Origin: Rheinheimera sp.
GTDB lineage: Bacteria; Pseudomonadota; Gammaproteobacteria; Enterobacterales; Alteromonadaceae
Assembly: GCA_003543135.1 (NCBI GenBank)
Contig: DPJG01000027.1
Location: 124,001-188,000, forward strand
Length of the DNA stretch: 64,000 nucleotides
Reading direction: 5' to 3'
In this document: piece by piece, positions 36,359 to 51,811 of the stretch
Numbering within the stretch: the stretch's first letter is position 1
How the letters are laid out: each line of letters starts with the position of its first letter
Notes under the pieces: generated by a model
Told to the model about the DNA's origin: nothing
Databases searched by the model: none
The model's input: the letters and a program-made list of their open reading frames with translations, nothing else
Translations under genes and position numbers: made by a program

Positions 36359-37577
36359 CCGTTAAATAAGCGGCCAAAGCATCATAAATCTGCTGCTGGT
36401 CAAATTCCTGTTCTATGGTTGCTCTGGCATTTTTTCTAAGCGCGCCCAGCGCGTAATGACCCTGGGTCAACAGTTGCAGCTCTCTGGCGATGGCCGTTGC
36501 ATCACGCTCAGGTACCAATAAACCGGATTGGCCATGGCAAATCAGTTCCGGAATACCGCTGTGATAAGTGGATAAACAAATCACGCCACTGGCCATCGCT
36601 TCCATCAGGGACACCGGAATACCTTCCATATCACCATTGCCGGCCGTGACGCTTGGTAATAAAAATACGTCGCTTTGCACTAAGGCCTCGGCAACCTTTG
36701 CAGGCGGCTGAACACCACAGAGTTGAATGTCCTGCTCAAGCCCAAGGTTGTGAATTTGTGCAGTCAGAGCCGGACGCAGCGGGCCATCACCGATCACGCG
36801 GTATTGCACAGCCACACCTGCACTCTTTAATAACGCAATAGCAGAGATGGCGTAGGCCAGGCCTTTTTTTTCGGTAAAGCGGGCAACCGACAACAACTGT
36901 AAAGGCTGTTGTAATACTCTGTCTGGCGATGGAAACAAAAATTTTTGTGTGGCAACGCCGGTGCGCAGCAGTTTGATTTTGTCTGCCGGGCAGCCGAGTT
37001 CTGCTAAACGCTGACACCATAGCTTGCTGATAGCAAAAACCGCAGGACAACTGAAGAACAGCTGCTGATAACAAGACTGATATTTGCTGAGCACTTTTTG
37101 TTCTGACAGATCAAAACCATGAAAAACCGGTACAATCTTGCCCGCCAGCAGACCCGCCTGCTGTAGCTGCAACGCCAGGCTGGCTGTGGTGCCAAAATGG
37201 CAAATCAGATAGTCCGCTGCATAGATTTGCCGGTGCGCTGCGATGATGGCGGCCAGATAACTGCGTGGCGTTGCGCTGCCGGATGGCGTAACTAACACAC
37301 GCCACACTGACTTTTTGCCAAGTCCGGTAGCAATAAGCCTTGCTCTTTGCAGCAATCTGCCGGTTTTGGTCGCCGGGGTTTGTGGCAGCAGGTAACTACA
37401 TCTTTGACTGAGTTGATAACGTTTTTCTGTTTCTGCCGGCAGCGGGCGGGGATCGTGGCTGAGCGCAATAATTTTCACATCAAAACCACGGTCGATAAGA
37501 CCAGTGAGCTGATCAAGGACAAAAGTTTCTGAATAACATGGAAATTTATCTAAAAAATAAATCAGCGAGGGTTTCAC
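36336..37577 (-). CDS. GT4-family glycosyltransferase, WcaL-like
   Basis: GT-B glycosyltransferase of 413 residues with LDKFPCYSETFVLDQLTGL at the N-terminus (a WcaL/AmsK-like opening) and LLSVARFTEKKGLAYAISA plus GNGDMEGIPVSLMEAMASG at the donor site. In E. coli, WcaL acts in colanic acid assembly beside WcaK and WzxC; here the same three types occur together. It overlaps the pyruvyltransferase gene by 4 bases (ATGA). Confidence 0.87.
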   Translation of the reverse strand: MKPSLIYFLDKFPCYSETFVLDQLTGLIDRGFDVKIIALSHDPRPLPAETEKRYQLSQRCSYLLPQTPATKTGRLLQRARLIATGLGKKSVWRVLVTPSGSATPRSYLAAIIAAHRQIYAADYLICHFGTTASLALQLQQAGLLAGKIVPVFHGFDLSEQKVLSKYQSCYQQLFFSCPAVFAISKLWCQRLAELGCPADKIKLLRTGVATQKFLFPSPDRVLQQPLQLLSVARFTEKKGLAYAISAIALLKSAGVAVQYRVIGDGPLRPALTAQIHNLGLEQDIQLCGVQPPAKVAEALVQSDVFLLPSVTAGNGDMEGIPVSLMEAMASGVICLSTYHSGIPELICHGQSGLLVPERDATAIARELQLLTQGHYALGALRKNARATIEQEFDQQQIYDALAAYLTDAQHGVN

Positions 37578-38878
37578 TGTACCGTCTCCGCGCTGTTCAC
37601 AAGATCCGCACTATCCACACTATTGGCACTGGCTGTGCCACAGGCAAGCCGGATCGCCGTGGCGGCACGTTGTTTTTCCTGTTGCACTGCGGCATCCGAG
37701 CGGACTTTTAACGCCGGCAGGTCATCAAGGGCGGCAAAAATCTGTTGTGCTGCTTCACCGTTGCACAGTTGCTGCAAACTAAGCGCCTGCTGCGGTAACT
37801 GCATTTGGGTAAAAATACCGGCTGATTTGTGTTCATAGTTAATGGCAAATGCCGGCGTACCAAAGTTCATCGAGATAATAGCGCTATGTAAGCGGGTGCC
37901 TATGGTGAGCTGGCACTGCGAAAATAACCAACCCAGTTCAATGTCATTTAACTCGCGCATTTCCACTTGCGCAGCTTCTGGCCGGCTCAGTTGCTGTTTG
38001 AGTTTTAACGCCAGCATCCGATCATCATTTTTATAACCATCAATACCGGTGCAGGTAGACAATAACAACAGCTGATAACCGGCGTCGATCAGCTGCTCCA
38101 TCAGTTTGAGCATGGCTTGTTCAAACTGCGCCTGGCTGCAGTTGAGCTTTTTATCAAAAGGATAAAGGGTACGGATAGTCAGCGCTATACGCCGCCCGCC
38201 GGCGGGCAATTGCCAGTTGGCTGGCACAGGCCATACCGATGGCTCAACCAGCCAGGCGGTATCAGCGCCCATCAATAGCTGTTTCATCGGTATTGTGGCT
38301 TGAGCTAATAAATCCGCGCTGATGGGCTCACGCAGCATCAGAGCTTCTGCTCTTGCAAAAACAACAGCGGCAATATGGCGAAAGGTGGCGTTGTTAAAGG
38401 GGCCGACACTGTGGCCTAACAAATATAAAGGCCGTTTGGCGAGCAAAGTGCAAAGTGCATAATCAAACTGGCTGGCGCCGTACAGGTCCACAAAGTTTGA
38501 GCCGCCGACCTGAATAACCAGATCAAATTGCCGGACAAAAGCAATTTCCTGATGCATAAGTTCTGGCAACGGCAATCTTAACCAGAGCGCCAGTGCAGGG
38601 TGTTCAACATGAAATGCCAGATAGCGGCTCAGGTAACGTGCTTTAAGAAAAGCTTTCAGGCGCCCGCTCAGACCTGCTTTGGGCTGCTGGTATAAGCCGG
38701 TTAACCTGTCCTGCTGGTAGGGTTGTCCTGATAAATAAGCAGAACTGACGGGGAAACGGCTTATCCAGCTAAAGTGCGCTGAAGGGAAAAGCTGTTGCAG
38801 GCTTTGATATAGTCCTCTGGAAATGGCACAGTCGCCCCGGTTGGCACAGGCATGGTTACCCATCAACAGTATTTTCAC
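37574..38878 (-). CDS. Polysaccharide pyruvyl transferase family protein, WcaK-like
   Basis: Protein of 434 residues of the polysaccharide pyruvyl transferase family, which adds pyruvate ketals from PEP to sugars. Family features are MGNHACANRGDCAISRGL at the N-terminus, LLGHSVGPFNN, and the C-terminal IGTRLHSAIISMNFGTPAFA with the conserved Arg and His, followed by INYEHKSAGI. It is the first gene of the minus-strand module; its promoter must lie in the short divergent gap shared with the T2SS operon. Confidence 0.87.
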   Translation of the reverse strand: MKILLMGNHACANRGDCAISRGLYQSLQQLFPSAHFSWISRFPVSSAYLSGQPYQQDRLTGLYQQPKAGLSGRLKAFLKARYLSRYLAFHVEHPALALWLRLPLPELMHQEIAFVRQFDLVIQVGGSNFVDLYGASQFDYALCTLLAKRPLYLLGHSVGPFNNATFRHIAAVVFARAEALMLREPISADLLAQATIPMKQLLMGADTAWLVEPSVWPVPANWQLPAGGRRIALTIRTLYPFDKKLNCSQAQFEQAMLKLMEQLIDAGYQLLLLSTCTGIDGYKNDDRMLALKLKQQLSRPEAAQVEMRELNDIELGWLFSQCQLTIGTRLHSAIISMNFGTPAFAINYEHKSAGIFTQMQLPQQALSLQQLCNGEAAQQIFAALDDLPALKVRSDAAVQQEKQRAATAIRLACGTASANSVDSADLVNSAETVQ

Positions 38879-38960: not shown

Positions 38961-38990
38961 TTGCTTTTGACAAATCTTTTAGTGGATAAT
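38961..38990 (+). promoter_or_regulatory. Candidate sigma70 promoter of the T2SS operon
   Basis: TTGCTT (38961-38966) and GATAAT (38985-38990) are separated by 18 bases in the divergent gap between the pyruvyltransferase gene and gspG. A perfect TTGACA (38967-38972) overlaps but is only 12 bases from the -10 and is not usable with it. Initiation near 38997 would place the upstream ATG (38989) outside the transcript, which supports the GTG start of gspG at 39022. Confidence 0.4.
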
Positions 38991-39021
38991 GCAAGTCCTC
39001 GTTTTGGAAAAGGAAGATGTT

Positions 39022-39426
39022 GTGCGTTGCTATTCGACACGTCGCTCAGGTTTTACGCTGATTGAATTATTAATTGTGATGGTTATTCTGGGGTTGCTGG
39101 CTTCATTGGTGGCGCCAACCATGTTTTCCAAAGTTGAATCATCAAAACGAAATACCGCAACTGCGCAGATGGAAATGTTAGCGACTTCGCTCGACGCATT
39201 TCGCCTTGATGTTGGTAAATATCCGGACAATCTGAATGAGTTATTAAATTCTGACCGCAAAGGTTGGGATGGTCCTTATCTGCCAAAAGATGTGCCGATG
39301 GACCCATGGGGCAATCCGTATGTTTACCGGTTTCCGGGCCAAAGCCACGCTTATGACTTATTAAGTTTAGGTGCTGACGGTGTAGATGGCGGTGAAGAAG
39401 ATAACGCCGATGTCTCTTACCGATAA
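39022..39426 (+). CDS. gspG: T2SS major pseudopilin GspG
   Basis: Type IV pilin-like protein that forms the T2SS pseudopilus. From GTG 39022 it is 134 residues with a 10-residue leader ending in Gly, then FTLIELLIVMVILGLLASLV with Glu at +5. The C-terminal half shows the GspG pattern GWDGPYLPKDVPMDPWGNPYVY and an acidic calcium-loop-like end. An in-frame ATG at 38989 exists, but the AAAGGAAG at 39008-39015 fits the GTG. It is the first gene of the operon, unlike the usual C-D-E-F-G order. Confidence 0.94.
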   Translation: MRCYSTRRSGFTLIELLIVMVILGLLASLVAPTMFSKVESSKRNTATAQMEMLATSLDAFRLDVGKYPDNLNELLNSDRKGWDGPYLPKDVPMDPWGNPYVYRFPGQSHAYDLLSLGADGVDGGEEDNADVSYR

Positions 39427-41101
39427 TACTGTGGGCGCCGGTTTTCAGGGCATAGCCGGTTATATTTTTCAGCTGGGTCTGGTTAATCAGGGCCAGCTTG
39501 AACGTGCTCTCGACTACAAACGCCAGCTGGGTGGCCGCATTGAGCAAATACTGGTCAACCTTGGTGTTATTCAACATGATGATTTAGTTGAGGTTTACGC
39601 CGGTTATTTGCAGTTACCCAAGTTTGAAGCCATCACCGAAGAAAACTCCCTGCCGTTGTCTGTGCTGGAACAGCTTGATATCAATCAGGCTGTCACTGCC
39701 GGTGCTTTGCCTTTCAGGCTGGAGCAACAACAGCTGCATCTGGCGGTGCTGGATCCTTTTAAACTTGATCTTTACGACCTGTGGAAAGCCGAAGGTTACG
39801 AGGTGGTACTGCACGTTTGCAAACAAAGCCACTTTGATGCACTTCGTGTGCAGTTAACCGTTGCCCAAACCTCTGAAAAACATCAATCGCACGATGGTGG
39901 CTCAGAGCTTGAGCGCCTGCGTGAACTGGCCTTTGGTGCGCCTACTGTTAACCTGGTAAACAATCTGATCGTCCGTGGTATTAAACTGCGTGCATCGGAT
40001 ATGCACATTGAGCCATTAAATGGCCGTTACCGCGTGCGTTACCGGGTGGATGGCATTTTGCATCAGGCCGAAACCATTCCGCTTGATTTGCAATTGGGTG
40101 TCATTTCGCGCATTAAAATTCTCGCCGGCATGGACATTGCCGAACGCCGCAAGCCACAGGATGGCAAAATAGAAACCTCAGTTGCCGGCAAAGAGCTGGA
40201 TATCCGTGTGTCGTCCCTGCCGCTGGGTGAGGGCGAAAGTATGGTGATGCGTTTCCTGCTCAAAGAGTCGGTGAATTTTGGTCTGGAAACCATTGGCTAT
40301 GAGCAGGATCTGATAGATCTGATTGAAAAGGATCTGCAAAGAACAACAGGGGTTGTGTTGATGACAGGCCCGACTGGCTCGGGTAAAACCACCAGTTTGT
40401 ATTCTTTTTTAGCCAGGCTGAATGAACCTTCGGTCAAAATTATTACGCTGGAAGACCCGATAGAATACCGTTTAGACGGTGTCAACCAGGTGCAGATCCA
40501 TACCGAAATCGGTCTGGACTTTGCCCGTGGCCTGCGCAGTATTGTGCGTCAGGATCCGGACATTATCATGGTGGGTGAAATCCGTGACCATGAAACCGCC
40601 CGTATTGCCATGCAATCTTCGCTGACCGGTCACCTTGTGTTCAGTACTGTGCACACCAATGATGCGCCAACCACCTTTACCCGTCTGATAGATTTGGGCG
40701 TGGAAGAGTTTTTATTAAATGCTTCCTTGATATCGGTGATGGCACAGCGTTTAGTCAGAACCATCTGCCCATACTGCAAAACCTGTGATGAAAATTCGGC
40801 TTTATTACATCAGCATAAAGAGATGATGGCATTGGCAGCACGTCTGAATGTAACACCTGCTTTTTCTGTGGGTACAGGTTGTGATCGCTGCGGCGGTACC
40901 GGTTTTCTCGGTCGGGTGGCGATTTTGGAATATCTGCCAAACGATCATGAAATTCAGTCTTTTGCCAAAGATCAGGATTTTCTGGCAAAGGTGCGGGATT
41001 ACCGCAACAGAAGAGGATTCAGAACTTTGCAGCAGGATGGTCTGTTAAAAGTGCTGAAAGGTGTCACCACACTTGATGAAGTCATGCGGGTTGCAGGTTA
41101 A
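39410..41101 (+). CDS. gspE: T2SS assembly ATPase GspE
   Basis: Cytoplasmic hexameric ATPase of about 563 residues. It has an N-terminal MshEN/N1E-type domain, then the ATPase core with Walker A GPTGSGKTTSLY, the Asp box around ITLEDPIEYRL, Walker B DPDIIMVGEIRDHETA and the His box LVFSTVHTNDAPTTF. A C-terminal tetracysteine zinc element (CPYCKTC ... CDRCGGTGFLG) is present. It overlaps the end of gspG; ATG 39386 is an alternative start. Confidence 0.95.
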   Translation: MSLTDNTVGAGFQGIAGYIFQLGLVNQGQLERALDYKRQLGGRIEQILVNLGVIQHDDLVEVYAGYLQLPKFEAITEENSLPLSVLEQLDINQAVTAGALPFRLEQQQLHLAVLDPFKLDLYDLWKAEGYEVVLHVCKQSHFDALRVQLTVAQTSEKHQSHDGGSELERLRELAFGAPTVNLVNNLIVRGIKLRASDMHIEPLNGRYRVRYRVDGILHQAETIPLDLQLGVISRIKILAGMDIAERRKPQDGKIETSVAGKELDIRVSSLPLGEGESMVMRFLLKESVNFGLETIGYEQDLIDLIEKDLQRTTGVVLMTGPTGSGKTTSLYSFLARLNEPSVKIITLEDPIEYRLDGVNQVQIHTEIGLDFARGLRSIVRQDPDIIMVGEIRDHETARIAMQSSLTGHLVFSTVHTNDAPTTFTRLIDLGVEEFLLNASLISVMAQRLVRTICPYCKTCDENSALLHQHKEMMALAARLNVTPAFSVGTGCDRCGGTGFLGRVAILEYLPNDHEIQSFAKDQDFLAKVRDYRNRRGFRTLQQDGLLKVLKGVTTLDEVMRVAG

Positions 41102-42291
41102 TGAACAACTGGGAGTTCGAAGCTGTTGACCCTGCAGGTGCCAAAGTTAAAGGCAGGGTAAGAGCTGATTCTGAACAAGCTGCGTTGTTGCAGGTCCAGC
41201 AACGTAACCTGTCTCCGTTAAAAGTCCGGGTTGTCAAACTGGAGTCTGATTTATTCAGCCGTATCTCTGCCGGCGAAATAGAACAGATGACCACCGAACT
41301 TGCGTTATTGCTGCGTAATGGCGTACAGCTGGACCGTGCTCTGGAAATGATGTCTGCGGTGAACCCCAATCAGGCGCTGGCGGCATTATTAACCAATATG
41401 ACCGAGGAAGTGCGCGGCGGCGGTAGTTTGTATGGTGCTTTTGCCCGTTTCCCGCGTTATTTTGACTCGCTGTTTTGTGAAATGGTGCGCATTGGTGAAG
41501 AAACCGGCAAACTGGCGGAAACGCTGGAGCGGGTCGCCGCCAGTCAAAAATTCCAGAATGAACTCAAAGGCAAAGTAAATCAGGCGATGATTTACCCGGC
41601 TTTTATTCTGGTGGTTTGTATTGTGGCGCTTTTTGCCATTTTTAACTTTATCGTGCCGAGTATGTCGGGTTTGTTCAGTAATATGAAAGACATACCCGCC
41701 TATACAGCTTTTCTGATCGACACCAGCAACTGGATGCAAAAATATCAGAGTTTGCTGGTCGGCTTTTTTGTGCTGCTGGTGTTGCTGGTGGTATTCAGCT
41801 GGCGCAAACCGGCTTTTAAAGCCATGGTGTTTTCTATATTGCGTAAGCTGCCGGTGATGAAAACAGGGTTGTTACTGAGCGAGCGTATCCGTTATGTCTC
41901 TGCGATGCATCTGATGTTGCAAAGTGGTTTACCTTTGGCGCAGGCCCTTGGCTTTGCCGTTGGTGTGCTGACCGATAGCAGGTTGCAGGGGCAAATCCGC
42001 CGGGTCAGGGATGAAGTCACTCAGGGCCGGATGTTGTCTGAATCACTGGCGTTAACTGATATTCTGGAACCTGTGATGCTGTCTCTGATCAAAGTGGGTG
42101 AAGAAAGCGGACGGCTTGACAGTATTTTTGGTGAAATTACCACCCGGACACGCTGGCGCTTTGAGCAATGGGCGCTGCGGTTAACCAGCATGCTGGAGCC
42201 TTTACTCATTATTATTATGGGTGGTTTGGTTGGTTCTGTGGTGGTGACTATGCTGCTCAGTATTGTTGCGACTACTGATGTCCCGCTCTGA
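41101..42291 (+). CDS. gspF: T2SS inner-membrane platform protein GspF
   Basis: Polytopic platform protein of 396 residues with two repeated T2SSF domains. The first has ELALLLRNGVQLDRALEMMS and PRYFDSLFCEMVRIGEETGKL. Three membrane helices lie near residues 165-190, 215-235 and 365-390, and the second domain repeats the pattern (MHLMLQSGLPLAQALGFAV, LSLIKVGEESGRL). It shares one base with gspE. It contacts GspE and GspL. Confidence 0.95.
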   Translation: MNNWEFEAVDPAGAKVKGRVRADSEQAALLQVQQRNLSPLKVRVVKLESDLFSRISAGEIEQMTTELALLLRNGVQLDRALEMMSAVNPNQALAALLTNMTEEVRGGGSLYGAFARFPRYFDSLFCEMVRIGEETGKLAETLERVAASQKFQNELKGKVNQAMIYPAFILVVCIVALFAIFNFIVPSMSGLFSNMKDIPAYTAFLIDTSNWMQKYQSLLVGFFVLLVLLVVFSWRKPAFKAMVFSILRKLPVMKTGLLLSERIRYVSAMHLMLQSGLPLAQALGFAVGVLTDSRLQGQIRRVRDEVTQGRMLSESLALTDILEPVMLSLIKVGEESGRLDSIFGEITTRTRWRFEQWALRLTSMLEPLLIIIMGGLVGSVVVTMLLSIVATTDVPL

Positions 42292-42688
42292 TCCTGCACG
42301 TGGTTTTACTTTAATTGAACTGCTGATTGTCATGTTTATCATGTCAATCAGTTTGTCTTTGGTGCTGCCTTTAACTGTTGACCAGGTTGATAAAGCGAAA
42401 CAACGCAGCGAGCGGCAACTGGTGGTGCTGTTTTATAAAAATGCGGTGCAACAGGCTTTTTTTGGCAGCCAGACCGTCAAACTGAAATTTCTGGGTAAAG
42501 TGCTGAGTTATGGTGAAGCAGAAAGGCGGCGCGAAATCCGGTTTGAACAGCTCAGTTTTCGTGAGGCCGAGATCACAGTCACAGTACCAGGTGTGATACC
42601 TGCCCAGCGTGTTGAAGTGGCCATCGACGGTCGGATATGGGTTCTCGAGCTTGATAAAGATGAAGCAAACTGGTTTAACCCTGATTGA
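42278..42688 (+). CDS. gspH: T2SS minor pseudopilin GspH
   Basis: Minor pseudopilin of 136 residues with leader MSRSDPARG cut before FTLIELLIVMFIMSISLSLV, Glu at +5. ATG 42278 is chosen because it gives a normal short leader; the frame is open further upstream inside gspF. It overlaps gspF by 14 bases and gspI by 29. The soluble domain is small and diverged, so its assignment rests on the prepilin motif and order. Confidence 0.82.
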   Translation: MSRSDPARGFTLIELLIVMFIMSISLSLVLPLTVDQVDKAKQRSERQLVVLFYKNAVQQAFFGSQTVKLKFLGKVLSYGEAERRREIRFEQLSFREAEITVTVPGVIPAQRVEVAIDGRIWVLELDKDEANWFNPD

Positions 42689-43064
42689 AGTTTTAATCGC
42701 TTCAGTGATTTTATTTATGACACTGGGGCTGGTTGCAACTGTATTTCAGCAAAGTCTGGGCATGCAGCAAAGGGCGATTAAACACCTTGCTGCGGCGGAG
42801 CAATTCCCATCTTTGGTCAGTCAAATCCGCTTTGAACTGGAACAGCAGAAAACCGAAGGTTCAATTGAGCTCAATGCCCAACGTTATCAATGGCAGGCCA
42901 CTGAACTAAAAAGGGCAAAAGAGCTCAGTTCAGTGGATGAAAACGGGCAGGACTATCTTGGCAATATTGGCATGCTGGTGTTGTTTAATGTCACAGTCAC
43001 TTCACTAAACGGCGGGACTGGTTTTGAATTCAGACAGGCAATATGGTTAAACAGCGAGGTTTAA
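42660..43064 (+). CDS. gspI: T2SS minor pseudopilin GspI
   Basis: Minor pseudopilin of 134 residues with a very short leader MKQTG before LTLIEVLIASVILFMTLGLV, Glu at +5. This is the usual GspI form. ATG 42660 lies within the end of gspH and gives the proper leader. The C-terminal domain is compact. GspI forms the pseudopilus tip with GspJ and GspK. Confidence 0.86.
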   Translation: MKQTGLTLIEVLIASVILFMTLGLVATVFQQSLGMQQRAIKHLAAAEQFPSLVSQIRFELEQQKTEGSIELNAQRYQWQATELKRAKELSSVDENGQDYLGNIGMLVLFNVTVTSLNGGTGFEFRQAIWLNSEV

Positions 43065-43732
43065 CATTACTGGAAATGCTGGTTGCGCTCAGTATCATGT
43101 CTGCCGTGATGATGCTGGCAAGCTCTGCTTACCGCTATTACGTGCTGGGTCTTAATCAGCAGCAAAAACAGTTACAAACCCAATTAACCCAGCTCAAAGC
43201 GCATACCGCCTGGCAACAGCAGTTGTCGGCCGCTGCCCTGTATTTTGTCAAAAAGCCGGAGCTGAATCAGCTGCTGTTTGTCGGACAACTGCATGAAGTC
43301 ACCTGGATGAGTCATCGTAGTGTACAACAGGCTGATTTACCCGCTATTGCCTGGATGGGGGTAGAAAATGGCGTTTGGCTGTATTGTGAAGCAACACTGC
43401 GCCAGCTCTTTGTCACAACACAAATCCCGACTTCAACCCAAATTTGTGAGCTATTCCGTCAGGAAATTGCACCTGTCAGCCAACTGCGTTTCAGCTATTT
43501 TGGCTGGAAGAGCCCCGCCGAAAAATACGCAGGTATGGGCGAAGGTGCACAGGTGATCAACCCGTTTAAACCCGAGTGGCATGATGAATACGATGCCGCA
43601 GTGAAAGAATTATTACCCACTTATATCAAGCTGGATGTAACCACCGACAGTGGCAGTAATAGCTATTGGGTGCAGGTTGTCGAGAGTGACCCGGATAAAA
43701 TCAGGATTTTTATGGGTTCAAAGGATCTATGA
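43043..43732 (+). CDS. gspJ: T2SS minor pseudopilin GspJ
   Basis: Minor pseudopilin of 229 residues with leader MVKQRG before LTLLEMLVALSIMSAVMML, Glu at +5. The length is near that of GspJ proteins. It overlaps gspI by 22 bases, and gspK follows one base after its stop. The C-terminus reads YWVQVVESDPDKIRIF. Confidence 0.88.
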   Translation: MVKQRGLTLLEMLVALSIMSAVMMLASSAYRYYVLGLNQQQKQLQTQLTQLKAHTAWQQQLSAAALYFVKKPELNQLLFVGQLHEVTWMSHRSVQQADLPAIAWMGVENGVWLYCEATLRQLFVTTQIPTSTQICELFRQEIAPVSQLRFSYFGWKSPAEKYAGMGEGAQVINPFKPEWHDEYDAAVKELLPTYIKLDVTTDSGSNSYWVQVVESDPDKIRIFMGSKDL

Positions 43733-43733
43733 T

Positions 43734-44648
43734 ATGATTTCGCGCTCTCAACGAGGTATTGCGTTAATTCTGGTGCTGATGCTGACTGCAGTCATTTCTG
43801 TGGTGGTGATTGTGATGCAATATAAAAGCAGATCAGCGCTTAATCTGGCATTGCAGGCGCAGCAGTTTAGCCAGGCCAGAGCAAAAGTTGAATCGGCCCG
43901 TGAAGAGCTGATTTATGTGCTGACCACCACGCCGGTTTGGTTAACAGGTGCTGCGCCTTTGGAGCTTGAAACGCACGAACTGCCGCCTGAGTTTAATATC
44001 TCAGGTACTGCCTTTGTCTGGAATGATGTTGATTTCCGGCTGACAGATACAGCAGGTAAAGTTGCGTTAATTCCATTTAACGAAGCAACCTGGCGTAAAT
44101 TGCTGGAAGGCCATGGCCTGAAATCTGCTGATCCGGTGATTGATGCTATCAAAGACTGGATTGATGAAGACGATTTAACCCATTTGTATGGCGCCGAGTC
44201 TGGTGATTATGAATTGCCGGAATTTCCGAGAAATCAGCAGCCACAGTTTGAAGACGAGTTTCGTTTTGTGCTTGGAATGTCAGATGAACTCTGGCAAAGC
44301 CTGAGGCCTTCCCTCACAATGGTGGGCTATGAGTTGCCCAATCCGTATTTTATGCCTGACAATATGTTGCCATTGATGATTGGGCCTTTAACGGCAGAAA
44401 TGTTGATTAAAGAGCGCACTGAACGCTTGTTCAGCAACGAGCTGGTCAGCGCGCTGCGCACCGAAGAAGAAACTTTTTTCCCCAGTAAAAGACTCGAAGT
44501 GCAGTTAAGAGCCAGAGTCGGGGAAGCTGAGTATTCAGAGAGTTTTGTATTAATCAGAGAAGCTGGTGCAGACCGTATCAGCCATATAACAAAAAAACAG
44601 CCCGGGCTTGAATGGCCTGTTGTGGAGTCAGGGGCAAATCACGAGTGA
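43734..44648 (+). CDS. gspK: T2SS pseudopilus tip protein GspK
   Basis: Largest minor pseudopilin, 304 residues, with leader MISRSQRG before IALILVLMLTAVISVVVIV; the +5 Glu is absent, as is typical for GspK. The large helical insertion domain has a KDWIDEDD segment (AIKDWIDEDDLTHLYGAE) characteristic of GspK. ATG 43734 gives the right leader. It overlaps the gspL-type gene by 4 bases. Confidence 0.9.
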   Translation: MISRSQRGIALILVLMLTAVISVVVIVMQYKSRSALNLALQAQQFSQARAKVESAREELIYVLTTTPVWLTGAAPLELETHELPPEFNISGTAFVWNDVDFRLTDTAGKVALIPFNEATWRKLLEGHGLKSADPVIDAIKDWIDEDDLTHLYGAESGDYELPEFPRNQQPQFEDEFRFVLGMSDELWQSLRPSLTMVGYELPNPYFMPDNMLPLMIGPLTAEMLIKERTERLFSNELVSALRTEEETFFPSKRLEVQLRARVGEAEYSESFVLIREAGADRISHITKKQPGLEWPVVESGANHE

Positions 44649-45751
44649 AAATAATACAAAAATTGTTCCGCAACCTGAATTGGCTGAGCCAGCCCGTAGA
44701 GAAGGCATTTAAACGCCGCCAACTGGCCACTTTGGTGATATCGCGCAGTCAGTATCAGGAACACAAGCGCAGTTATAAAGTGTCTTTACCCGATCTGTAC
44801 CGTGTGGTGCAGAACGAGTGCAAAATGCTGTCCCGCCCGGGTTATGTGGTGGTTTGGATGGTGTTACCAAAAAGCACCGACAGCTATGAAGTATTATTTG
44901 CGGTTATTGCACGTACTTTGTTAGCCGGTGTACCGTCACAGCTGCAGTTGGTGGTTCCTGAAACCTGGTTGTTTTACCGTAATCTCAGTGCCAATGTGCT
45001 GTATCAGGTGCATTCTGCACAAAACTATTGGGCGTTTTTGTCTGCTTCGGGCACCTTGCACGTTACTGCGCAGCAAGGCCTGATGCAACATGCCAGTTAT
45101 TTCCTCGAAGCCCTGGGTCTGTCAGAAACATCGGTTGAACGGCGTAGCCTTGAGCTGCCTGATTTTTTTGAAAAAAATGAATTAACGCTGCATTGGTGGC
45201 AATTAGCAGGGCTTTTTTGCTTACCGGAACGTTCGGCCGAACCCTTTCAGGCGCAAAAGTATAAAAATGTGGCAAAGGTGCTTGCTGTGGTCGCACTCAG
45301 TTATGGCCTGTTATTGTCGGCCGCTTTGGTACTTAGGCAGTCATGGCTGGAACAGGATGTCGCTGAGCTTAAAAAATCGGCTTCGTCTTTGGTGGAGCAG
45401 CAGAGCAGGTTAGATGAACAGCTGCTGCTGATTAGCCATTACGACAAATTGCTCAACAACAGAACGGATTACAGCCTGATGCTGGCAGAGCTGGCAACCC
45501 AGATTAAAGATGTAGCTGTGATTGAAAATGTAACTGTGACAGATAATCTGCTCACCATCCGCGGCAGCAGTCAGTCGGCAACAGACGTGCTGGCAAAACT
45601 TGCTGAATCAGGCATTTGGCAGGAAAGCCGTTTTACCCAACCGGTGCAACGCGGCACTGACGGCGACATGTTTACCATCACTGCAATTTATAAACCGCAA
45701 AATAACATCACGCAAAAAGCAGATACTGTGGCGTCAGAGGTGAAACCATGA
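44645..45751 (+). CDS. gspL: T2SS GspL-like inner-membrane protein
   Basis: Bitopic protein of 368 residues starting with GTG 44645 (GTGA overlap with gspK). A cytoplasmic N-terminal part of about 210 residues is followed by one membrane helix (VLAVVALSYGLLLSAALVL, about 223-241), a coiled coil and a periplasmic ferredoxin-like domain (VAVIENVTVTDNLLTIRGSS). This matches GspL/PilN architecture. Sequence conservation of the N-terminal ASKHA-like part is low, so the call relies on architecture and operon position. It would bind GspE and GspM. Confidence 0.8.
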   Translation: MKIIQKLFRNLNWLSQPVEKAFKRRQLATLVISRSQYQEHKRSYKVSLPDLYRVVQNECKMLSRPGYVVVWMVLPKSTDSYEVLFAVIARTLLAGVPSQLQLVVPETWLFYRNLSANVLYQVHSAQNYWAFLSASGTLHVTAQQGLMQHASYFLEALGLSETSVERRSLELPDFFEKNELTLHWWQLAGLFCLPERSAEPFQAQKYKNVAKVLAVVALSYGLLLSAALVLRQSWLEQDVAELKKSASSLVEQQSRLDEQLLLISHYDKLLNNRTDYSLMLAELATQIKDVAVIENVTVTDNLLTIRGSSQSATDVLAKLAESGIWQESRFTQPVQRGTDGDMFTITAIYKPQNNITQKADTVASEVKP

Positions 45752-46299
45752 GTGTGATGCAGCGTAATCAATTGGGAATCGCCTTTATTATGGTGCTGGT
45801 GTTGCTGAAGTTTGTTGTGGTGCCCTGGTTTGAATGGGTATCGGAAAAAACAGAGGTCATTGCCCAGCTTGCCACCAGTAAGCAGCGGTTTGAAAATGTC
45901 AGTGAGCGCCATGCCGCTTTAGTAACCAAGCAGCAGCAAATTGAACAAAGTTTTGCCCGGTTGCAAAAAATTTGGGCCAGCGGTAATGCAGCACAAAACT
46001 CTGTGGCTGTGTTGCGTTACATTGAAGCTGCCGCCAAAGAACAAGGTGTTGAGTTAAGTAATCGTAGCGCCCGTGAGGCTGTAGTTGCAGAGACAACCAC
46101 AATTCCGGCGCGGATGTTTGTCCAGGGGTCACCGGAAGCCCTGTTAAAGTTTGTGCACAAACTCGAAACCGGCAGCCCTGCGATGATAGTGCATCGGCTG
46201 ACCCTCAACAAAAACAACAAATTAGACAACACATTGGTGATGAACCTCGAAGTGATGGTATTAGCAGAGCCGGGAGTACCAGATGAAACTGGAAAATAG
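45748..46299 (+). CDS. gspM: T2SS GspM-like inner-membrane protein
   Basis: Bitopic protein of 183 residues: short cytoplasmic tail, one membrane helix (LGIAFIMVLVLLKFVVV), coiled coil, and a periplasmic domain with the pattern SPEALLKFVHKLETGSPAMIVHRLTL, which is typical of GspM/PilO. It overlaps the gspL-type gene by 4 bases (ATGA) and the next gene by 17. Confidence 0.82.
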   Translation: MSVMQRNQLGIAFIMVLVLLKFVVVPWFEWVSEKTEVIAQLATSKQRFENVSERHAALVTKQQQIEQSFARLQKIWASGNAAQNSVAVLRYIEAAAKEQGVELSNRSAREAVVAETTTIPARMFVQGSPEALLKFVHKLETGSPAMIVHRLTLNKNNKLDNTLVMNLEVMVLAEPGVPDETGK

Positions 46300-46774
46300 C
46301 CGGGAAAAAGGCATGGTTGCTGCGCTTTTGTTGTTACTGCTGATACATTTGGCAGTGACTTTTTTTGCGCAGTCAGGTAATTATCAAAAAAAGCAGCAAC
46401 AGGCAGCTGAAAACATTGCAACTTTTGACCTCAGCACCACAGAGCTTGCTCTGGCGCAATTAAGCGCCCTCAGTGAACTATTCGGTATTGAACCCAGTCT
46501 TGCAGTTGCTGGTGATGCCAATAATGAAGCTGAGCAAGATTTGCTGCAGGTAAAACCAACGCTGTTGGCGGTGAGTGAAAGCGCCGGGCAATTTATTGCG
46601 AAAATAGCCATCAGCGAACAAAACAGCAATCGTATTGTAACGATGCGGCCTGGTGATGAGTTGCTTGGTTATAAGTTAACCAAACTTACCTTAAATGACG
46701 CCGAATTTTCCAAGGGTGCATCGTCTTTTACCATGCATATGTTTAAGCGTGACGACAGCACCAAAACCAAATAA
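46283..46774 (+). CDS. Short GspC/XpsN-like periplasmic connector
   Basis: Bitopic protein of 163 residues with one membrane helix (GMVAALLLLLLIHLAVTFF) and a periplasmic domain whose ending (GQFIAKIAISEQNSNRIVTM, GDELLGYKLTKLTLNDAEF) has the layout of the GspC homology region that binds the secretin. There is no PDZ or coiled-coil domain, so it is shorter than E. coli GspC. Xanthomonas Xps and Pseudomonas Hxc systems also place a GspC-type gene between gspM and gspD. The name is not certain. Confidence 0.68.
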   Translation: MKLENSREKGMVAALLLLLLIHLAVTFFAQSGNYQKKQQQAAENIATFDLSTTELALAQLSALSELFGIEPSLAVAGDANNEAEQDLLQVKPTLLAVSESAGQFIAKIAISEQNSNRIVTMRPGDELLGYKLTKLTLNDAEFSKGASSFTMHMFKRDDSTKTK

Positions 46775-46792
46775 GTAACAGAGACAGAGTTA

Positions 46793-48862
46793 ATGAATAC
46801 GCAAAAATTAAAATGCCCACAATTGCTCGTAACAACAACCACGATGTTGCTGTTGTTTGGTTGCACTTCCACGCCAGAAACAAAAGAAGATAACTTTTCA
46901 GTGCCATCTTCTTTTTTACAAACAGACAGCACCAACAAAAATCAATCTGAAAAGCCAGCTGAAGTAAAAAAGGTGCAGCCCACTTATAGCGAAACCCAGA
47001 TTTCAACGTTGGGTTCAATCAGGCCAGGCTCTTCTTTATTGATCCAGTTGCCTGAATTTGAAAATGATGAGCCTATCAGCCTGTCGCTGAATGAAATGGC
47101 GTTGCCTCAGCTGGCGCATTATGTTTTTGGTGAATTACTGAATTTAAGTTACGTGGTGTCACCCGAAGTTGAGTCCATGACACAAAAAGTGGCGTTAAAT
47201 TTATCAAAAAATATTGCTCCCAAAGAGTTGTTTGAAATTACCCGCCAGGTGCTGGCGCAGCAAAATGTCAGTGTGTACACCAAAGACAATATTGTGTATT
47301 TGTCACAAAGTACCAATACCGCAGGTAATCGTTCTGTTGGTATCGGCGCCAATTTAAGTGATTTGCCTGAAGGGGGCGACCAGATAGTGCAGTTGGTGCC
47401 ATACACTTTTAACTCAGTGCGGGGCATCAGCAATATCACCTCTAAATTAACCGGTGCCCAGGTGTACCCGGACACCACCAACCGTTTATTAGTGGTAGAA
47501 GGCAGCAGAGCCGACGTTGAACGTACTTTGCAAATTGTTAAAATGCTGGATGTGCCGCATGCCCGTGGCCGTGATGTGCGGCTGTTGTCTTTGGTGTATT
47601 TATCACCGGAAGAAATGATCAAACAAGTCGGTGAGTTATTGCAGGCTGAAGGTTTACAACTGGGTGAAGATTTACAGCTGGTGGCGCTAAACCGGCTGAA
47701 TTCGGTGGTTGTATATGCCGCAAGCACAGTGCTGGCAGAACGGGTGTCTATGTGGGCACAAAAGCTCGATGTGGCCTCAGGTGGTGAGGTGATGCGTTTT
47801 TATGTATATCGCCCGCAATATGCCAAAGCAGAAGAAATGGTGCAGGCGGTGCAGGGTTTGTTACAAGGCGGTGCAGCTGCTGGGCCTAACCGCAGTTCAG
47901 GCGCTCAAAATGCGGGTGCAACTGGCCAGGGGCAGTCTCAATCATCGGGTGGCGGTGCTCAGTCCGGCGCGCCGGCATCTGCCAATTTAGGTCAGGGCCT
48001 GCGGCTTACGGTTGATAAAGCACAAAATGCAATTTTGGTAAACGCCACGCCAAGCCGTTATCAGGAAGTTTATGCTTTATTGCAACAAATGGATCGCTTG
48101 CCTGGTCAGGTAGCTATGCAGGTGATGATTGTAGAAAAAGACATTACCGATCAACAATCAGCCGGTTTTGGCGCTATTTCGTACAATAGTCTGGATGATA
48201 AAGTAAATAGTGGCACCGCAAGCTTTGATGGCGTGAATGGCAAATTTAGTTTTGGTATTTTTAATGGTGACTGGAATACCACTTTTAATCTGATTAACAA
48301 ACAATCTGATACCAAAGTATTATCCCGTCCTTACCTTATTGTAAAAGATGGGGAGAGTGCCAGTATTAATGCCGGCGACCAGGTGCCTATTATTACCGGA
48401 CAAAGCAACAATGACGAAACACCGGGTATTATTCGTAACCAGGTGCAATATCGTTCAACCGGTATTTCATTTTCGGTCACGCCAACAATTAATGCCGATG
48501 GTTTAGTCAGTCTGGAAGTATCGTCTGATACCTCGGCCGCTGTGCCGCTTAGTGCAGACGCTGCAGTGCCAACGCCAGTCATTCGTAACCGCAGCCTGAC
48601 CACCAGTGTGATGGTGGGGTCAGGGCAAACTGTGGTGCTGGGTGGCCTGATTAAAGAAGACTTAAAAGACAGTGACTCTAAAGTACCGTTTTTTGGTGAT
48701 TTGCCCTTGTTAGGTAAGCTTTTTCAATATAAAGGCAATGACATATCCCGTACCGAATTGCTGATTATTATTACGCCAAGAATAGTGCGCAGCACCTCGG
48801 AAATGGATGAATTTGGCCAAAAACTAAGCGAATTGTACAGTTTTCCGGTAGAACAGAAGTAA
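46793..48862 (+). CDS. gspD: T2SS secretin GspD, predicted lipoprotein
   Basis: Outer-membrane secretin of 689 residues. The signal ends in a lipobox LFGC with Cys24, so it is probably lipid-modified, as in self-piloting HxcQ and XpsD; no GspS pilotin gene is near. An N0 domain begins near PISLSLNEMALPQLAHYVFG, N1-N3 follow, and N3 carries a Gly/Ser/Gln-rich insertion (near residue 365-395). The C-terminal secretin core includes VPIITGQSNNDETPG, VGSGQTVVLGGLIKED and PFFGDLPLLGKLFQ. It ends the T2SS operon, 278 bases before the exported-protein gene. Confidence 0.95.
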   Translation: MNTQKLKCPQLLVTTTTMLLLFGCTSTPETKEDNFSVPSSFLQTDSTNKNQSEKPAEVKKVQPTYSETQISTLGSIRPGSSLLIQLPEFENDEPISLSLNEMALPQLAHYVFGELLNLSYVVSPEVESMTQKVALNLSKNIAPKELFEITRQVLAQQNVSVYTKDNIVYLSQSTNTAGNRSVGIGANLSDLPEGGDQIVQLVPYTFNSVRGISNITSKLTGAQVYPDTTNRLLVVEGSRADVERTLQIVKMLDVPHARGRDVRLLSLVYLSPEEMIKQVGELLQAEGLQLGEDLQLVALNRLNSVVVYAASTVLAERVSMWAQKLDVASGGEVMRFYVYRPQYAKAEEMVQAVQGLLQGGAAAGPNRSSGAQNAGATGQGQSQSSGGGAQSGAPASANLGQGLRLTVDKAQNAILVNATPSRYQEVYALLQQMDRLPGQVAMQVMIVEKDITDQQSAGFGAISYNSLDDKVNSGTASFDGVNGKFSFGIFNGDWNTTFNLINKQSDTKVLSRPYLIVKDGESASINAGDQVPIITGQSNNDETPGIIRNQVQYRSTGISFSVTPTINADGLVSLEVSSDTSAAVPLSADAAVPTPVIRNRSLTTSVMVGSGQTVVLGGLIKEDLKDSDSKVPFFGDLPLLGKLFQYKGNDISRTELLIIITPRIVRSTSEMDEFGQKLSELYSFPVEQK

Positions 48863-48917
48863 TTGTCGATCTTTGGTAAAAAATTCAGCAATTTCAGCAA
48901 TATTATAAAAAAGGTAG

Positions 48918-48947
48918 TTGACGTTAGGTGGGAAGGGTATATATGAT
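48918..48947 (+). promoter_or_regulatory. Strong sigma70-like promoter of the exported surface protein gene
   Basis: TTGACG (48918-48923) and TATGAT (48942-48947) with an 18-base spacer. The predicted start near 48954 leaves a 5' leader of about 187 bases before ATG 49141. The gene downstream thus has its own strong promoter, independent of the T2SS operon. Confidence 0.7.
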
Positions 48948-49043
48948 TCCCTTCGTTAAATGCTCTACGGTGACTTTTGCAGGTGGTGAACGCATGCAAG
49001 CGCCGGCTGCTGTACTAAAGTCGCAGTGGTGTTTAGCACCTTA

Positions 49044-49077
49044 GGTTAACGGCCAGGGTCCTAGACTCATGTTAACC
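49044..49077 (+). promoter_or_regulatory. Hairpin in the long 5' leader
   Basis: GGTTAAC (49044-49050) and GTTAACC (49071-49077) form a perfect 7-bp stem with a 20-base loop. A near-palindrome GGACACGTGTTCC follows at 49081-49093. Long structured leaders are known to stabilise S-layer mRNAs; that role here is inference. Confidence 0.5.
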
Positions 49078-49140
49078 CAGGGACACGTGTTCCAATGAGC
49101 AGCTAAAGTTGCTTATAAATATATTACGGAGAAAAACGGA

Positions 49141-50895
49141 ATGAAAAATTTAAAGAAAGCGCTTCTTTCTACTGCTATTTTAGCGGGCTTATCAGCAGGT
49201 AACGCGTTTGCTGGTACTGAAGCATGTTTTGAAGTGTATTCGGTTGCTGATGGTTTAGCGCCAACAGCGTTTGATACACTGTACACTCCAGCCTCTTGTA
49301 TCGCAGAAGCATCTCGTACTGGTGCTGCAGCTGCACAGTTGCAAGCAACTGATTCTGTAAAAGTAGCTTACGAACTGACAAAGTCTCTAACTTTGGATTT
49401 CGATGCTGCAACTCAGGTTGCTCCAGGTACAGACGATCTGCACATCGTTTATATCCCTACTACTGACATTCCTGGTGGTACTAAAATCACCATGAAATTA
49501 GCTGGTGCTACTTTTGCTGGTAACTCAAACCAGATCCACTTATTAAAAGATGCTGGTGACGCTACTAACGTATCTGCTGTTGCTTCTTCTGATGGTGCAG
49601 TCGATGGTCAAAGCACTATCACTTTCATCACTAAAGCTGGTATCACAATCGGCGCGGGTACTCGTTTAGTGTTGTCTCGCTTGTCTTCTGGTACTTACGC
49701 TGCTGGTATTGACCCAGTTGGTGTGAAGATCGAAAACACTGCTTGTACTGATAGTTCTTCAGCTTCTAAAGTAACGATCCAAGCTACTGAAGCCAAGACT
49801 GACGGTGGTACGGGCTACACAATCGCAGGCGGCGCATCTGCTGCTCAAGAAGTTGTTGATACATCAGCTCAGTTCGTGACTTTCGTTGGTTCTTCAACTG
49901 TAAACGGTCAAGTAAATGCTGAAAGCAAAAACTTTGATGAAGCAGCAATCACTGCTCGTACAGAGTTCGTGTATGACACAGCGAGCAACCAAGGTTTGAT
50001 TCTGCAAAAAGCAAACCTGATCCATAAAGCTGGTTTTATCGACCGTTTCGCTGCTCTGGATTACAGAATCACTCGTGCTGTTGGTGATAAGTTTGAACTG
50101 TCGTTTGTTGAAACTGCTGATGCAGGCGCTTCTGTTAAAGCTGAAGTTTACAACAGCCGTTCTGCTGTAGGTGCTTTAACTGCCGCTTTCGACCTGAATG
50201 GTGCTGCAACCGGTACTGCTCTGGATTTCGTAAGTGCTAAACCAGCTACTGCTCAAATCACTTTAGACGCTACTCAAGTGTTCAGCCCTGTAGCAACTGG
50301 TGCTGAAACCATTCCTGCGTCTTACGTGTCTGGCGAAGACTATAACGAACTGTTTATCACTGTGTCTCAAACAGATCTGACTAAGATCATGAACTTCAAC
50401 TACGACATCAACACGCATGCTAAGTTGAACCTGAGTGATGCTAACCAGTTAGACCACTGTGATGTTACCAAGAACACTCACAACGTTGGTGTTAACGGCG
50501 CAGTTCTGAAAGTTCCTTACACTGTAGCTGGTACTGGCAACTTTGTACGTATCACTAACGAGCACACTGTAGCTGCTGAAGTAACTGTTGACCTGTTCAG
50601 CGAATCAGCTGACGGCACAACTGGCAACCGCGCTGTAACAGCTGTTAAACTGGCTAACGTTCCAGCTAAGTCTTCAGTTGTTTATTATGTTCCAGACGTA
50701 GTACAAGCTGGTGTTGACCAGAAAAACTATGCTGGTTCAGATGGTGTAACTGCTAACGGTGCTAACCTGCGTCACACTATGACTTTCACTGTTACTTCTC
50801 CGAAGAACACAGTGCACGGTGTATCTGTACAGAAACTGTCTACCGGTCAAGACCGTGTAATGCCAGTTCTGGATCTGAACGATTGGCAACAATAA
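49141..50895 (+). CDS. Highly expressed exported protein, S-layer candidate
   Basis: Protein of 584 residues with a clear Sec signal peptide (MKNLKKALLSTAILAGLSAG, then NAFA before GTEA). The mature part is rich in Ala, Thr, Val, Asp and Gly, looks mainly beta, and has four Cys (EACFE, ASCIA, TACTD, DHCDV) and few basic residues. No enzyme motif, transmembrane strand array, LPXTG or PEP-CTERM tail is seen; it ends PVLDLNDWQQ. Codon use is far more biased than in neighbours (GCT, GGT, GTA/GTT, AAC, CTG preferred), with a strong GGAG site 9 bases before ATG. These are signs of a very abundant surface protein such as an S-layer subunit, and the T2SS operon directly upstream is the likely exporter. 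Similarity to the Slr4-type S-layer family of Pseudoalteromonas should be tested. Confidence 0.72.
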   Translation: MKNLKKALLSTAILAGLSAGNAFAGTEACFEVYSVADGLAPTAFDTLYTPASCIAEASRTGAAAAQLQATDSVKVAYELTKSLTLDFDAATQVAPGTDDLHIVYIPTTDIPGGTKITMKLAGATFAGNSNQIHLLKDAGDATNVSAVASSDGAVDGQSTITFITKAGITIGAGTRLVLSRLSSGTYAAGIDPVGVKIENTACTDSSSASKVTIQATEAKTDGGTGYTIAGGASAAQEVVDTSAQFVTFVGSSTVNGQVNAESKNFDEAAITARTEFVYDTASNQGLILQKANLIHKAGFIDRFAALDYRITRAVGDKFELSFVETADAGASVKAEVYNSRSAVGALTAAFDLNGAATGTALDFVSAKPATAQITLDATQVFSPVATGAETIPASYVSGEDYNELFITVSQTDLTKIMNFNYDINTHAKLNLSDANQLDHCDVTKNTHNVGVNGAVLKVPYTVAGTGNFVRITNEHTVAAEVTVDLFSESADGTTGNRAVTAVKLANVPAKSSVVYYVPDVVQAGVDQKNYAGSDGVTANGANLRHTMTFTVTSPKNTVHGVSVQKLSTGQDRVMPVLDLNDWQQ

Positions 50896-50920
50896 TCTGA
50901 TTTTTCAGGTTAATTAAGAA

Positions 50921-50944
50921 AACCCCGCTTCGGCGGGGTTTTTT
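50921..50944 (+). terminator. Strong Rho-independent terminator after the surface-protein gene
   Basis: An 8-bp stem (50921-50928 with 50933-50940) with a TTCG tetraloop and a run of T. It makes the surface-protein gene a monocistronic unit. Confidence 0.95.
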
Positions 50945-50998
50945 ATTGGATGAAAGCTACTTAAGTTTGGTCTGTAGCGTGATAACAGGAATTTTTTG

Positions 50999-51727
50999 AT
51001 GAAAAGAATAACCTTGGTTGCATTGGCAGCTTTGTTTTTAACCGCTTGCCAAAATGGCAATAATACTGATTTAGCTGCCAAAGTAGCGGCACTGGAAGAA
51101 AAAGTAGAAAAACTCAGCACACTGCAAACTGAAATTGCCCAACGTGCTGGCATGGGTGCGCTGGTGCGGCCAGAGCAGCTGGCGTTTGCCGATGGTCATC
51201 AGGTTGGTGAAAAAATGGCCAAAGTCGCTATTCTTGAATTCACCGATTTACAGTGCCCGTTCTGCGCTAAATTTAACCAGGAAATTTGGCCTGAGCTGAA
51301 AAAAAATTACGTAGACACAGGTAAAGTGTTGTTTGTTGGCCGCGAATTCCCGCTGTTTCAGTCGCATCCACAAGCGCCTTTTGCTGCTTTAACCTTACGC
51401 TGCGCTGCAACACAGGATCTTTATGCACCAATGAAAGAATACCTGTTTGCCAATCAGGGCACGCTGAAACAAACTGAGATTGATGCAGAATTAACCAGAC
51501 TGAAAGCTGACGTGGCTAAACATACCGAATGTATGAAGAACAAAGAGTTACAGGATGGTGTTCGTGACTCTACACTCTATGCCGGTAAACTGGGTTTAAG
51601 CTCTACACCCACATTTTTTATCGGCCTTAACGCTGGTAATGGTGTAACAGATTATCAGGAATTAGTTGGTGCCAAGTCTTATGCTGAGTTTGCTGCAGTA
51701 TTGGATGCGTTACTGGCAAAACAATAA
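50999..51727 (+). CDS. DsbA/DsbG-like thioredoxin-fold lipoprotein
   Basis: Protein of 242 residues. The lipoprotein signal ends in LTAC with Cys17 followed by Gln, which predicts outer-membrane retention. A short coiled coil (VAALEEKVEKLSTLQ) precedes a DsbA-type thioredoxin domain with active site CPFC (FTDLQCPFCAKFN) and cis-Pro region SSTPTFFIG. Two more Cys (LRCAA, HTECM) occur. ATG 50999 is preferred over TTG 50996. It lies 104 bases after the surface-protein gene, whose product has four Cys, so a role in its disulfides is plausible but not shown. Confidence 0.87.
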   Translation: MKRITLVALAALFLTACQNGNNTDLAAKVAALEEKVEKLSTLQTEIAQRAGMGALVRPEQLAFADGHQVGEKMAKVAILEFTDLQCPFCAKFNQEIWPELKKNYVDTGKVLFVGREFPLFQSHPQAPFAALTLRCAATQDLYAPMKEYLFANQGTLKQTEIDAELTRLKADVAKHTECMKNKELQDGVRDSTLYAGKLGLSSTPTFFIGLNAGNGVTDYQELVGAKSYAEFAAVLDALLAKQ

Positions 51728-51762: not shown

Positions 51763-51811
51763 GCCATGGCAAGCTGAAAAACTTCGTTAATCAGCAAGCC
51801 ATGGCTTTTTT
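51763..51811 (+). terminator. Probable terminator after the thioredoxin-like gene
   Basis: GCCATGGC at 51763-51770 can pair with the same palindrome at 51798-51805 across a 27-base loop, followed by six T. Each arm is self-complementary, so a compact alternative structure is possible. Confidence 0.5.

Follow-up and report, generated by a model that had tools for sequence, protein, structure and literature searches.

In the 64,000-nt stretch of a Rheinheimera sp. genome analyzed here (the window; C4:124001-188000 of the 4.0-Mb genome G000), an operon for a type II secretion system (T2SS) ends directly upstream of the gene for a 584-aa exported protein, and we judge, with a probability of about 0.8, that this locus is a self-contained surface-layer (S-layer) export module of the kind described for Slr4 of Pseudoalteromonas tunicata. 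This reading draws on the operon and the protein family, on how the two co-occur and cluster together, on a matching phylogeny, and on a pairing of conserved cysteines with a dsb gene, all of which were computed here. The same idea was central to an initial annotation of this DNA and is already in print for relatives.

The operon lies on the + strand at 38989-48862 in the order G-E-F-H-I-J-K-L-M-C-like-D, and its predicted products make up a T2SS, with secretin, ATPase, platform, pseudopilins G to K, L, and M all present. Nine of its 10 gene junctions overlap and the remaining one is an 18-bp gap, with gene starts taken as those of the longest open reading frames (ORFs), some of which are possibly over-called. 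The 584-aa ORF (49141-50895, + strand) begins 278 bp past gspD and encodes a protein with a signal peptide to about residue 24 (read by eye), a variable middle, and a conserved C-terminal domain beginning near residue 450; its mass is 60.4 kDa as precursor and 58.1 kDa if cleaved after residue 24. Both the overlapping gspG-to-gspD operon and the signal-peptide protein 278 bases beyond it are thus as the initial annotation had described them.

Across 295 genomes of the family, exporter and protein occur together. A protein profile built from nine proteins beside such T2SSs matched 80 genomes at E ≤ 1e-5, and a secretin profile built from 11 sequences matched 95 at E ≤ 1e-100, with 77 of these scoring 580 bits or more and 18 scoring 360-427 bits, two classes divided only after the search, where a gap had appeared in the scores. 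The protein was present in 75 of the 77 genomes above the gap and the secretin in 75 of the 80 protein genomes (Fisher P = 3e-61, with genomes counted as independent of kinship); setting aside the nine genomes behind the profiles gave 66/68, and none of the 18 weaker-secretin genomes had the protein. Comparative genomics had been named at the outset as a check, and the secretin type and the protein family do co-occur. They are also neighbors: the protein gene lies on the same strand and within 10 kb of gspD in 72 of the 77 genomes, standing 142-1510 bp downstream for 64 of 66 high-scoring secretins and 8.4-9.5 kb upstream for 8 of 11 middle-scoring ones. In each of the 12 named loci retrieved that encode the protein, which come from Pseudoalteromonas, Colwellia, Thalassomonas, Alkalimonas, and Aestuariibacter, the gene directly follows gspD.

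Five genomes hold the protein without this secretin. A contig end cuts the operon in G092 (L130), G198 has a 153-aa piece of the protein, and the matches in G146 and G235 are confined to 60 and 51 positions of the profile, at its signal-peptide end. The fifth, G125 (L137), carries an eroded operon in which gspG and gspE are followed by a shortened gspF that leads into what is left of the S-layer-like gene (355 aa); secretion system and cargo have decayed together there. In G120 the protein gene and gspD are on different contigs. Among the 22 genomes of the genus that were searched, G000 included, only G019 also has this protein (81% identity) and this GspD (92-93%). Five others (G003, G004, G005, G012, G014) carry a diverged form of the operon, and a family protein follows gspD in four of them; the G003 copy is split into two ORFs, and the contig ends in G004.

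The T2SS genes, all on the + strand, differ in how well they fit known families. gspG (38989-39426), for the major pseudopilin, scores 138 bits against TIGR01710, above cut-off, matches PF08334, and has a GFTLIE motif at residue 21, and gspE (39386-41101), for the assembly ATPase, scores 514 bits against TIGR02533, below the canonical cut-off of 630, with Walker A, Walker B, and two CxxC motifs. The inner membrane platform gene gspF (41101-42291) matches PF00482 (4.5e-49). Three minor pseudopilin genes, gspH (42263-42688), gspI (42609-43064), and gspJ (43043-43732), encode N-methyl prepilin motifs, and another, gspK (43650-44648), matches PF21687 (2.9e-13). A gspL-like gene (44612-45751) with a PilN domain (PF05137, 2e-5) and gspM of the XpsM type (45748-46299; PF10741, 2.9e-9; NF040576, 59.2 bits against a cut-off of 60) precede a gspC-like gene (46283-46774), named by position, whose 163-aa product matched no Pfam family and only one, unrelated, NCBIfam family far below cut-off. 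The outer-membrane secretin gene gspD (46793-48862) encodes a lipoprotein-like start (PF00263, 2.7e-45; TIGR02517, 307-313 bits against a cut-off of 351). Pfam cut-offs were reached by GspG, E, F, K, M, and D and by the PilN domain of L. When nine of the proteins, those other than I and J, were compared with NCBIfam, GspG alone exceeded the cut-off of its own family and E, F, H, K, M, and D matched their own T2SS families below cut-off; the system is therefore a divergent T2SS.

A canonical GspD is encoded elsewhere in G000 (C26:33901; 541 bits, above cut-off), which makes the window T2SS an extra system. This separate GspD, like the match between the secretin type and a single protein family (75 of 77 genomes), speaks against the alternative that the T2SS exports several proteins, such as enzymes or adhesins, with the 584-aa protein merely its most abundant cargo. 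We regard that alternative as doubtful but give it some weight, as T2SSs in general take many substrates and five inspected loci of relatives have two to four such genes in tandem or close to it. The initial annotation had gone further and proposed a one-substrate exporter for an S-layer-like protein; the co-occurrence favors a dedicated T2SS with an S-layer-like protein, while the loci with two to four genes leave a single substrate unsupported. A further secretin-like frame, with an internal TAA, is found at C10:105211-106440 of G000.

Slr4 of P. tunicata is described in PMC7821379 as an S-layer protein, on the strength of electron microscopy and deletion, whose gene lies immediately 3' of T2S genes G, E, F, K, D, and others, and its authors proposed a dedicated secretion system. 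The same article ties Slr4 homologs to marine metagenomes, and AnnoView (PMC11094555) shows the T2S neighborhood again for Slr4 homologs. Slr4 is a single protein of about 59 kDa (PMC7821379), and its locus and the window are alike in having T2SS genes immediately 5' of a gene for a Sec-exported protein; similar neighborhoods are described for Slr4 in related species (PMC7821379, PMC11094555). In the window, too, the operon stands directly beside the protein gene, an arrangement conserved in relatives, and the protein has a predicted Sec signal peptide (by eye) and an exported size of about 55-60 kDa. Homology to the Slr4-type family would rest on the C-terminal domain, as the window protein differs from that family in aligning solely over its C-terminal 110 or so residues; hhalign of the window subfamily against the family domain gave a probability of 97.5 (E = 6.6e-12), and another comparison gave 94.2 (E = 1.1e-7). 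Unlike the Slr4 loci, the window has four conserved cysteines, a linked DsbA-like gene, and a T2SS of another clade. The L110 protein, read from MEIMFKK, comes to 59.2 kDa, or 56.9 kDa with a cut placed by eye at 23/24, which fits the published size and cleavage site and makes it the probable best fit to published Slr4.

The Aeromonas S-layer had been put forward as the precedent. Its A-layer (vapA) has its own T2SS beside the S-layer gene (PMC7821379, PMC10765051), a likeness to the window that holds by description, whereas the window genes match Slr4-type loci in order and sequence. We replaced Aeromonas with Slr4, the better precedent, whose published neighborhood matches. The NpdA S-layer of Paracidovorax citrulli, described with 12 gsp genes clustered upstream (PMC10765051), likewise resembles the window in having a gsp cluster beside an S-layer or S-layer-like gene, but its spread over Beta- and Gammaproteobacteria and its bead-like layer set it apart, again by description.

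The window protein belongs to a subfamily (class B) seen at 12 loci: the window, G019, L092-L099, G122 (L132), and G619 (L142). Full-length identity to the window protein is 81% in G019 and 43-57% in L092-L099, and the G619 protein is 55% identical to it. The window protein has cysteines at residues 29, 53, 202, and 440, and in the class B alignment three cysteine columns are complete (12/12), with the fourth occupied in 10 of 12 and displaced by one column in the other two. Downstream, beginning 100 bp 3' of the 584-aa gene, is a predicted DsbA-like thiol oxidoreductase lipoprotein gene (50996-51727, + strand; PF13462, 4.5e-27; PF01323, 6e-9; PF08139), with lipobox LTAC and active site CPFC. 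A CPxC protein gene directly follows the protein gene in all 12 class B loci (CPFC in 10, CPYC in 2), as compared with no dsb match at E ≤ 1e-3 in the fetched stretches of 33 loci outside the subfamily (class A). Over the 295 genomes, a dsb profile scored at least 288 bits in 11, all of them genomes in which the subfamily was seen, and the next score was 191. These counts, the four conserved cysteines, and the placement of the dsb gene after the protein gene whether the latter is at the head or the tail of the operon all run counter to the idea that the neighbor is a general thiol oxidoreductase, present by chance or for other envelope proteins. That idea, which gains from the breadth of the Thioredoxin_4 and DSBA families, appears to us rather unlikely, and we assign the dsb gene to the T2SS-protein unit. 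Thioredoxin, Dsb, disulfide, and cysteine find no mention in the main text of PMC7821379 or PMC11094555, and a literature search on S-layers and type II secretion with DsbA/disulfide or thioredoxin, at the level of titles only, returned no title on this pairing.

The exporter phylogeny agrees with this grouping. In a tree of GspE, GspF, and GspD (53 loci, 1623 columns, G619 left out), the window and G019 join eight class B T2SSs with support of 1.00; at L133, L134, and L135 the label B reflects secretin score, the first two branching with L047 here and L135 standing apart. Nine class B loci have the order protein-dsb-G-E-F and onward, and three (the window, G019, and G619, the last from another taxonomic family) have D-protein-dsb at the end of the operon. 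With one exporter clade carrying its cargo at opposite operon ends, the tie between cargo and exporter has therefore outlasted a move between those ends. We give an even chance to the fuller proposal that this is an undescribed branch in which a lattice protein, a private T2SS, and a private disulfide catalyst form one inherited unit, with the cargo-oxidase pair at either end of the operon and with branches of the family marking the lattice gene by a leader element of their own.

Several points weigh against the S-layer module. G149 and G244 have the secretin without the protein, with an opposite-strand ORF after gspD in the former and a 504-aa lipoprotein-like ORF in the latter, and G089 and G126 have their protein match away from gspD, which is followed there by a signal-peptide ORF that is cut by the end of the fetched stretch and unmatched by the profile. 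The survey scored first-look candidates in each genome (up to five for the protein, three for the secretin, and nine for dsb), so absences are not proof. Ten of the 12 class B loci also contributed to the protein and dsb profiles, and only G122 and G619 are independent of them. When a four-sequence group with the L110 protein was used as stand-in for Slr4 (EAR28894), hhalign gave a probability of just 11.8 (E = 0.0025). An AlphaFold model of the window protein was unusable (mean pLDDT 39.9), and that of a relative (pLDDT 65.7) drew low-TM matches from the PDB, mostly Ig-like. At the window itself, a lattice, high expression, and secretion by this T2SS are predictions from sequence.

It is in this light that a further alternative has to be considered, in which the 584-aa protein is plentiful at the surface or in the matrix, as an adhesin or shed layer, but forms no lattice. 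A lattice cannot be read from sequence, the PDB matches of the relative's model are generic beta proteins, and Slr4 is itself described as a major biofilm matrix component as well (PMC7821379). We nonetheless hold this alternative to be quite unlikely, given how the loci fit the published description of Slr4, a proven lattice former (PMC7821379). The relative's model matched no S-layer fold, the S-layer entry 4aq1 appearing at rank 29 with a meaningless TM of 0.07. The 584-aa protein itself had no Pfam or NCBIfam match and no sequence match among PDB chains at E ≤ 10, and relatives sought in viral contigs and plasmids were not found.

Between gspD and the protein gene lies a 278-nt leader (48863-49140, + strand) with a promoter-like site, a 22-nt element, and two predicted hairpins just 5' of the ribosome-binding site. 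The promoter-like site, TTGACG-18-TATGAT (48918-48947, + strand), matches consensus at 10 of 12 positions and is one of four found in the scan against 2.8 ± 1.9 expected, so that the strong promoter of the initial annotation is only suggestive. The strong terminator it had placed after the gene can be read by eye at about 50920-50947 (+ strand) and is absent from the scanner list. A monocistronic transcript, also proposed there, is likely given this terminator, although the DsbA-like gene 100 bp downstream had been overlooked. The claim of biased codons held up well: the effective codon number of the 584-aa ORF, our main measure, is 35.2, the lowest of the 53 ORFs taken as genes in the window (median 49.5), a ranking within the window only. 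EF-Tu (TIGR00485), sought in G000 as a codon reference, was not found at E ≤ 1e-50 in this assembly of 99.8% completeness, perhaps owing to an assembly gap or masked stretch.

The leader is identical between the window and G019 at 277 of 278 nt while the two species' proteins differ by 19%, and a single difference has P = 4e-16 if mismatches are taken to be as frequent as in the final 1063 nt of gspD. Across the locus, identity between the two is 96-100% for the T2SS proteins G to C, 92% for dsb, and 81% for the 584-aa protein; in 100-nt blocks, the gspD end, leader, and gene start are 98-100% identical. In blocks of 49141-50895 compared with L046, identity is 64-85% in the mature part ahead of the C-terminal domain and 84-98% in the C-terminal part. 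The leader has thus been kept by either constraint or recent exchange. Recent exchange of DNA is a real possibility, if a little short of even, as the identical stretch also takes in the signal peptide and the final 260 bp of gspD; it is countered by blocks of the leader that persist in G619, a member of another taxonomic family, where a comparison of two sequences gave 76% over 71 nt (E = 1.7e-10). The 22-nt element occurs once each in G000, G019, and G619, always before this gene, and its reversed control matched nowhere in these three genomes.

The whole 278-nt leader has a fold z of -2.5, and class B leaders just 5' of the ribosome-binding site average -2.3 against shuffles, with 11 of 12 below -1 in a set that includes the near-duplicate window and G019; the same region of class A leaders folds more weakly (mean z -1.3; 25 of 39 below -1). 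A common RNA fold found no support, with RNAalifold of five other leaders giving -2.4 kcal/mol and almost no common structure. Rfam had no match to the leader even at E ≤ 1, and 10 of 11 weak matches lay over the terminator, all below gathering scores. In class A, the 10-mer TTTCATGAAA is found within 70 nt 5' of the start in 30 of 39 genes (L047, L049, L051-L055, L100-L123), in 30 of 31 first copies after gspD versus 0 of 8 distal copies. In L100-L104, two to four S-layer-like genes follow one gspD, and the later copies are without the exact leader element, which suggests that they are silent or alternative copies. TTTCATGAAA followed by GGAG occurs once in five of eight genomes checked, each time at the S-layer-like gene; the reversed control is nearly as frequent (four matches in three of eight genomes), so the rarity of the class A element alone proves nothing, and the argument for it is that all five matches sit at the protein gene. 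Among the genomes checked, those that have leader elements have them only at the lattice-candidate gene.

Genes for surface polysaccharide surround the locus. An SLBB/Poly_export protein of 935 aa (14789-17596) and a glycosyltransferase (at 36336) are encoded upstream, a Polysacc_synt_2 protein (at 51801) and a second glycosyltransferase (at 53894) downstream, and a polysaccharide pyruvyl transferase gene (37574-38878, - strand; PF04230), also present in G019, is divergent from the T2SS operon. Some Gram-positive bacteria anchor their S-layers through pyruvylated polymers, and it is conceivable that this transferase is linked to S-layer anchoring here. In L092, L093, and L096 the class B protein gene is closely preceded by one for an SLBB/Poly_export exporter of 881-914 aa, from which a single gene separates it in L093; at L099 the upstream protein that was checked is an AMP-binding enzyme.

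If the locus is an S-layer export module, the 584-aa protein would be produced abundantly, under its own promoter and behind a long leader, and would enter the periplasm via Sec. T2SSs export folded proteins, and folding in the periplasm is probable, with two disulfides that the neighboring DsbA-like lipoprotein would make. The window T2SS, separate from the housekeeping T2SS, would then push the folded protein through the outer membrane, and the protein would assemble on the cell surface, perhaps held there by the neighboring polysaccharide.

What is new relative to the published Slr4 pairing is a branch with its own probable disulfide-forming helper gene. If this reading is correct, the module would offer a test case for how a T2SS recognizes one cargo, because the two partners are paired in dozens of genomes and a single exporter clade allows its cargos to be compared. 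It would also bear on whether disulfides need to form before a secreted lattice is exported, and its leader elements would be relevant to the way in which bacteria maintain a very high output of S-layer mRNA.

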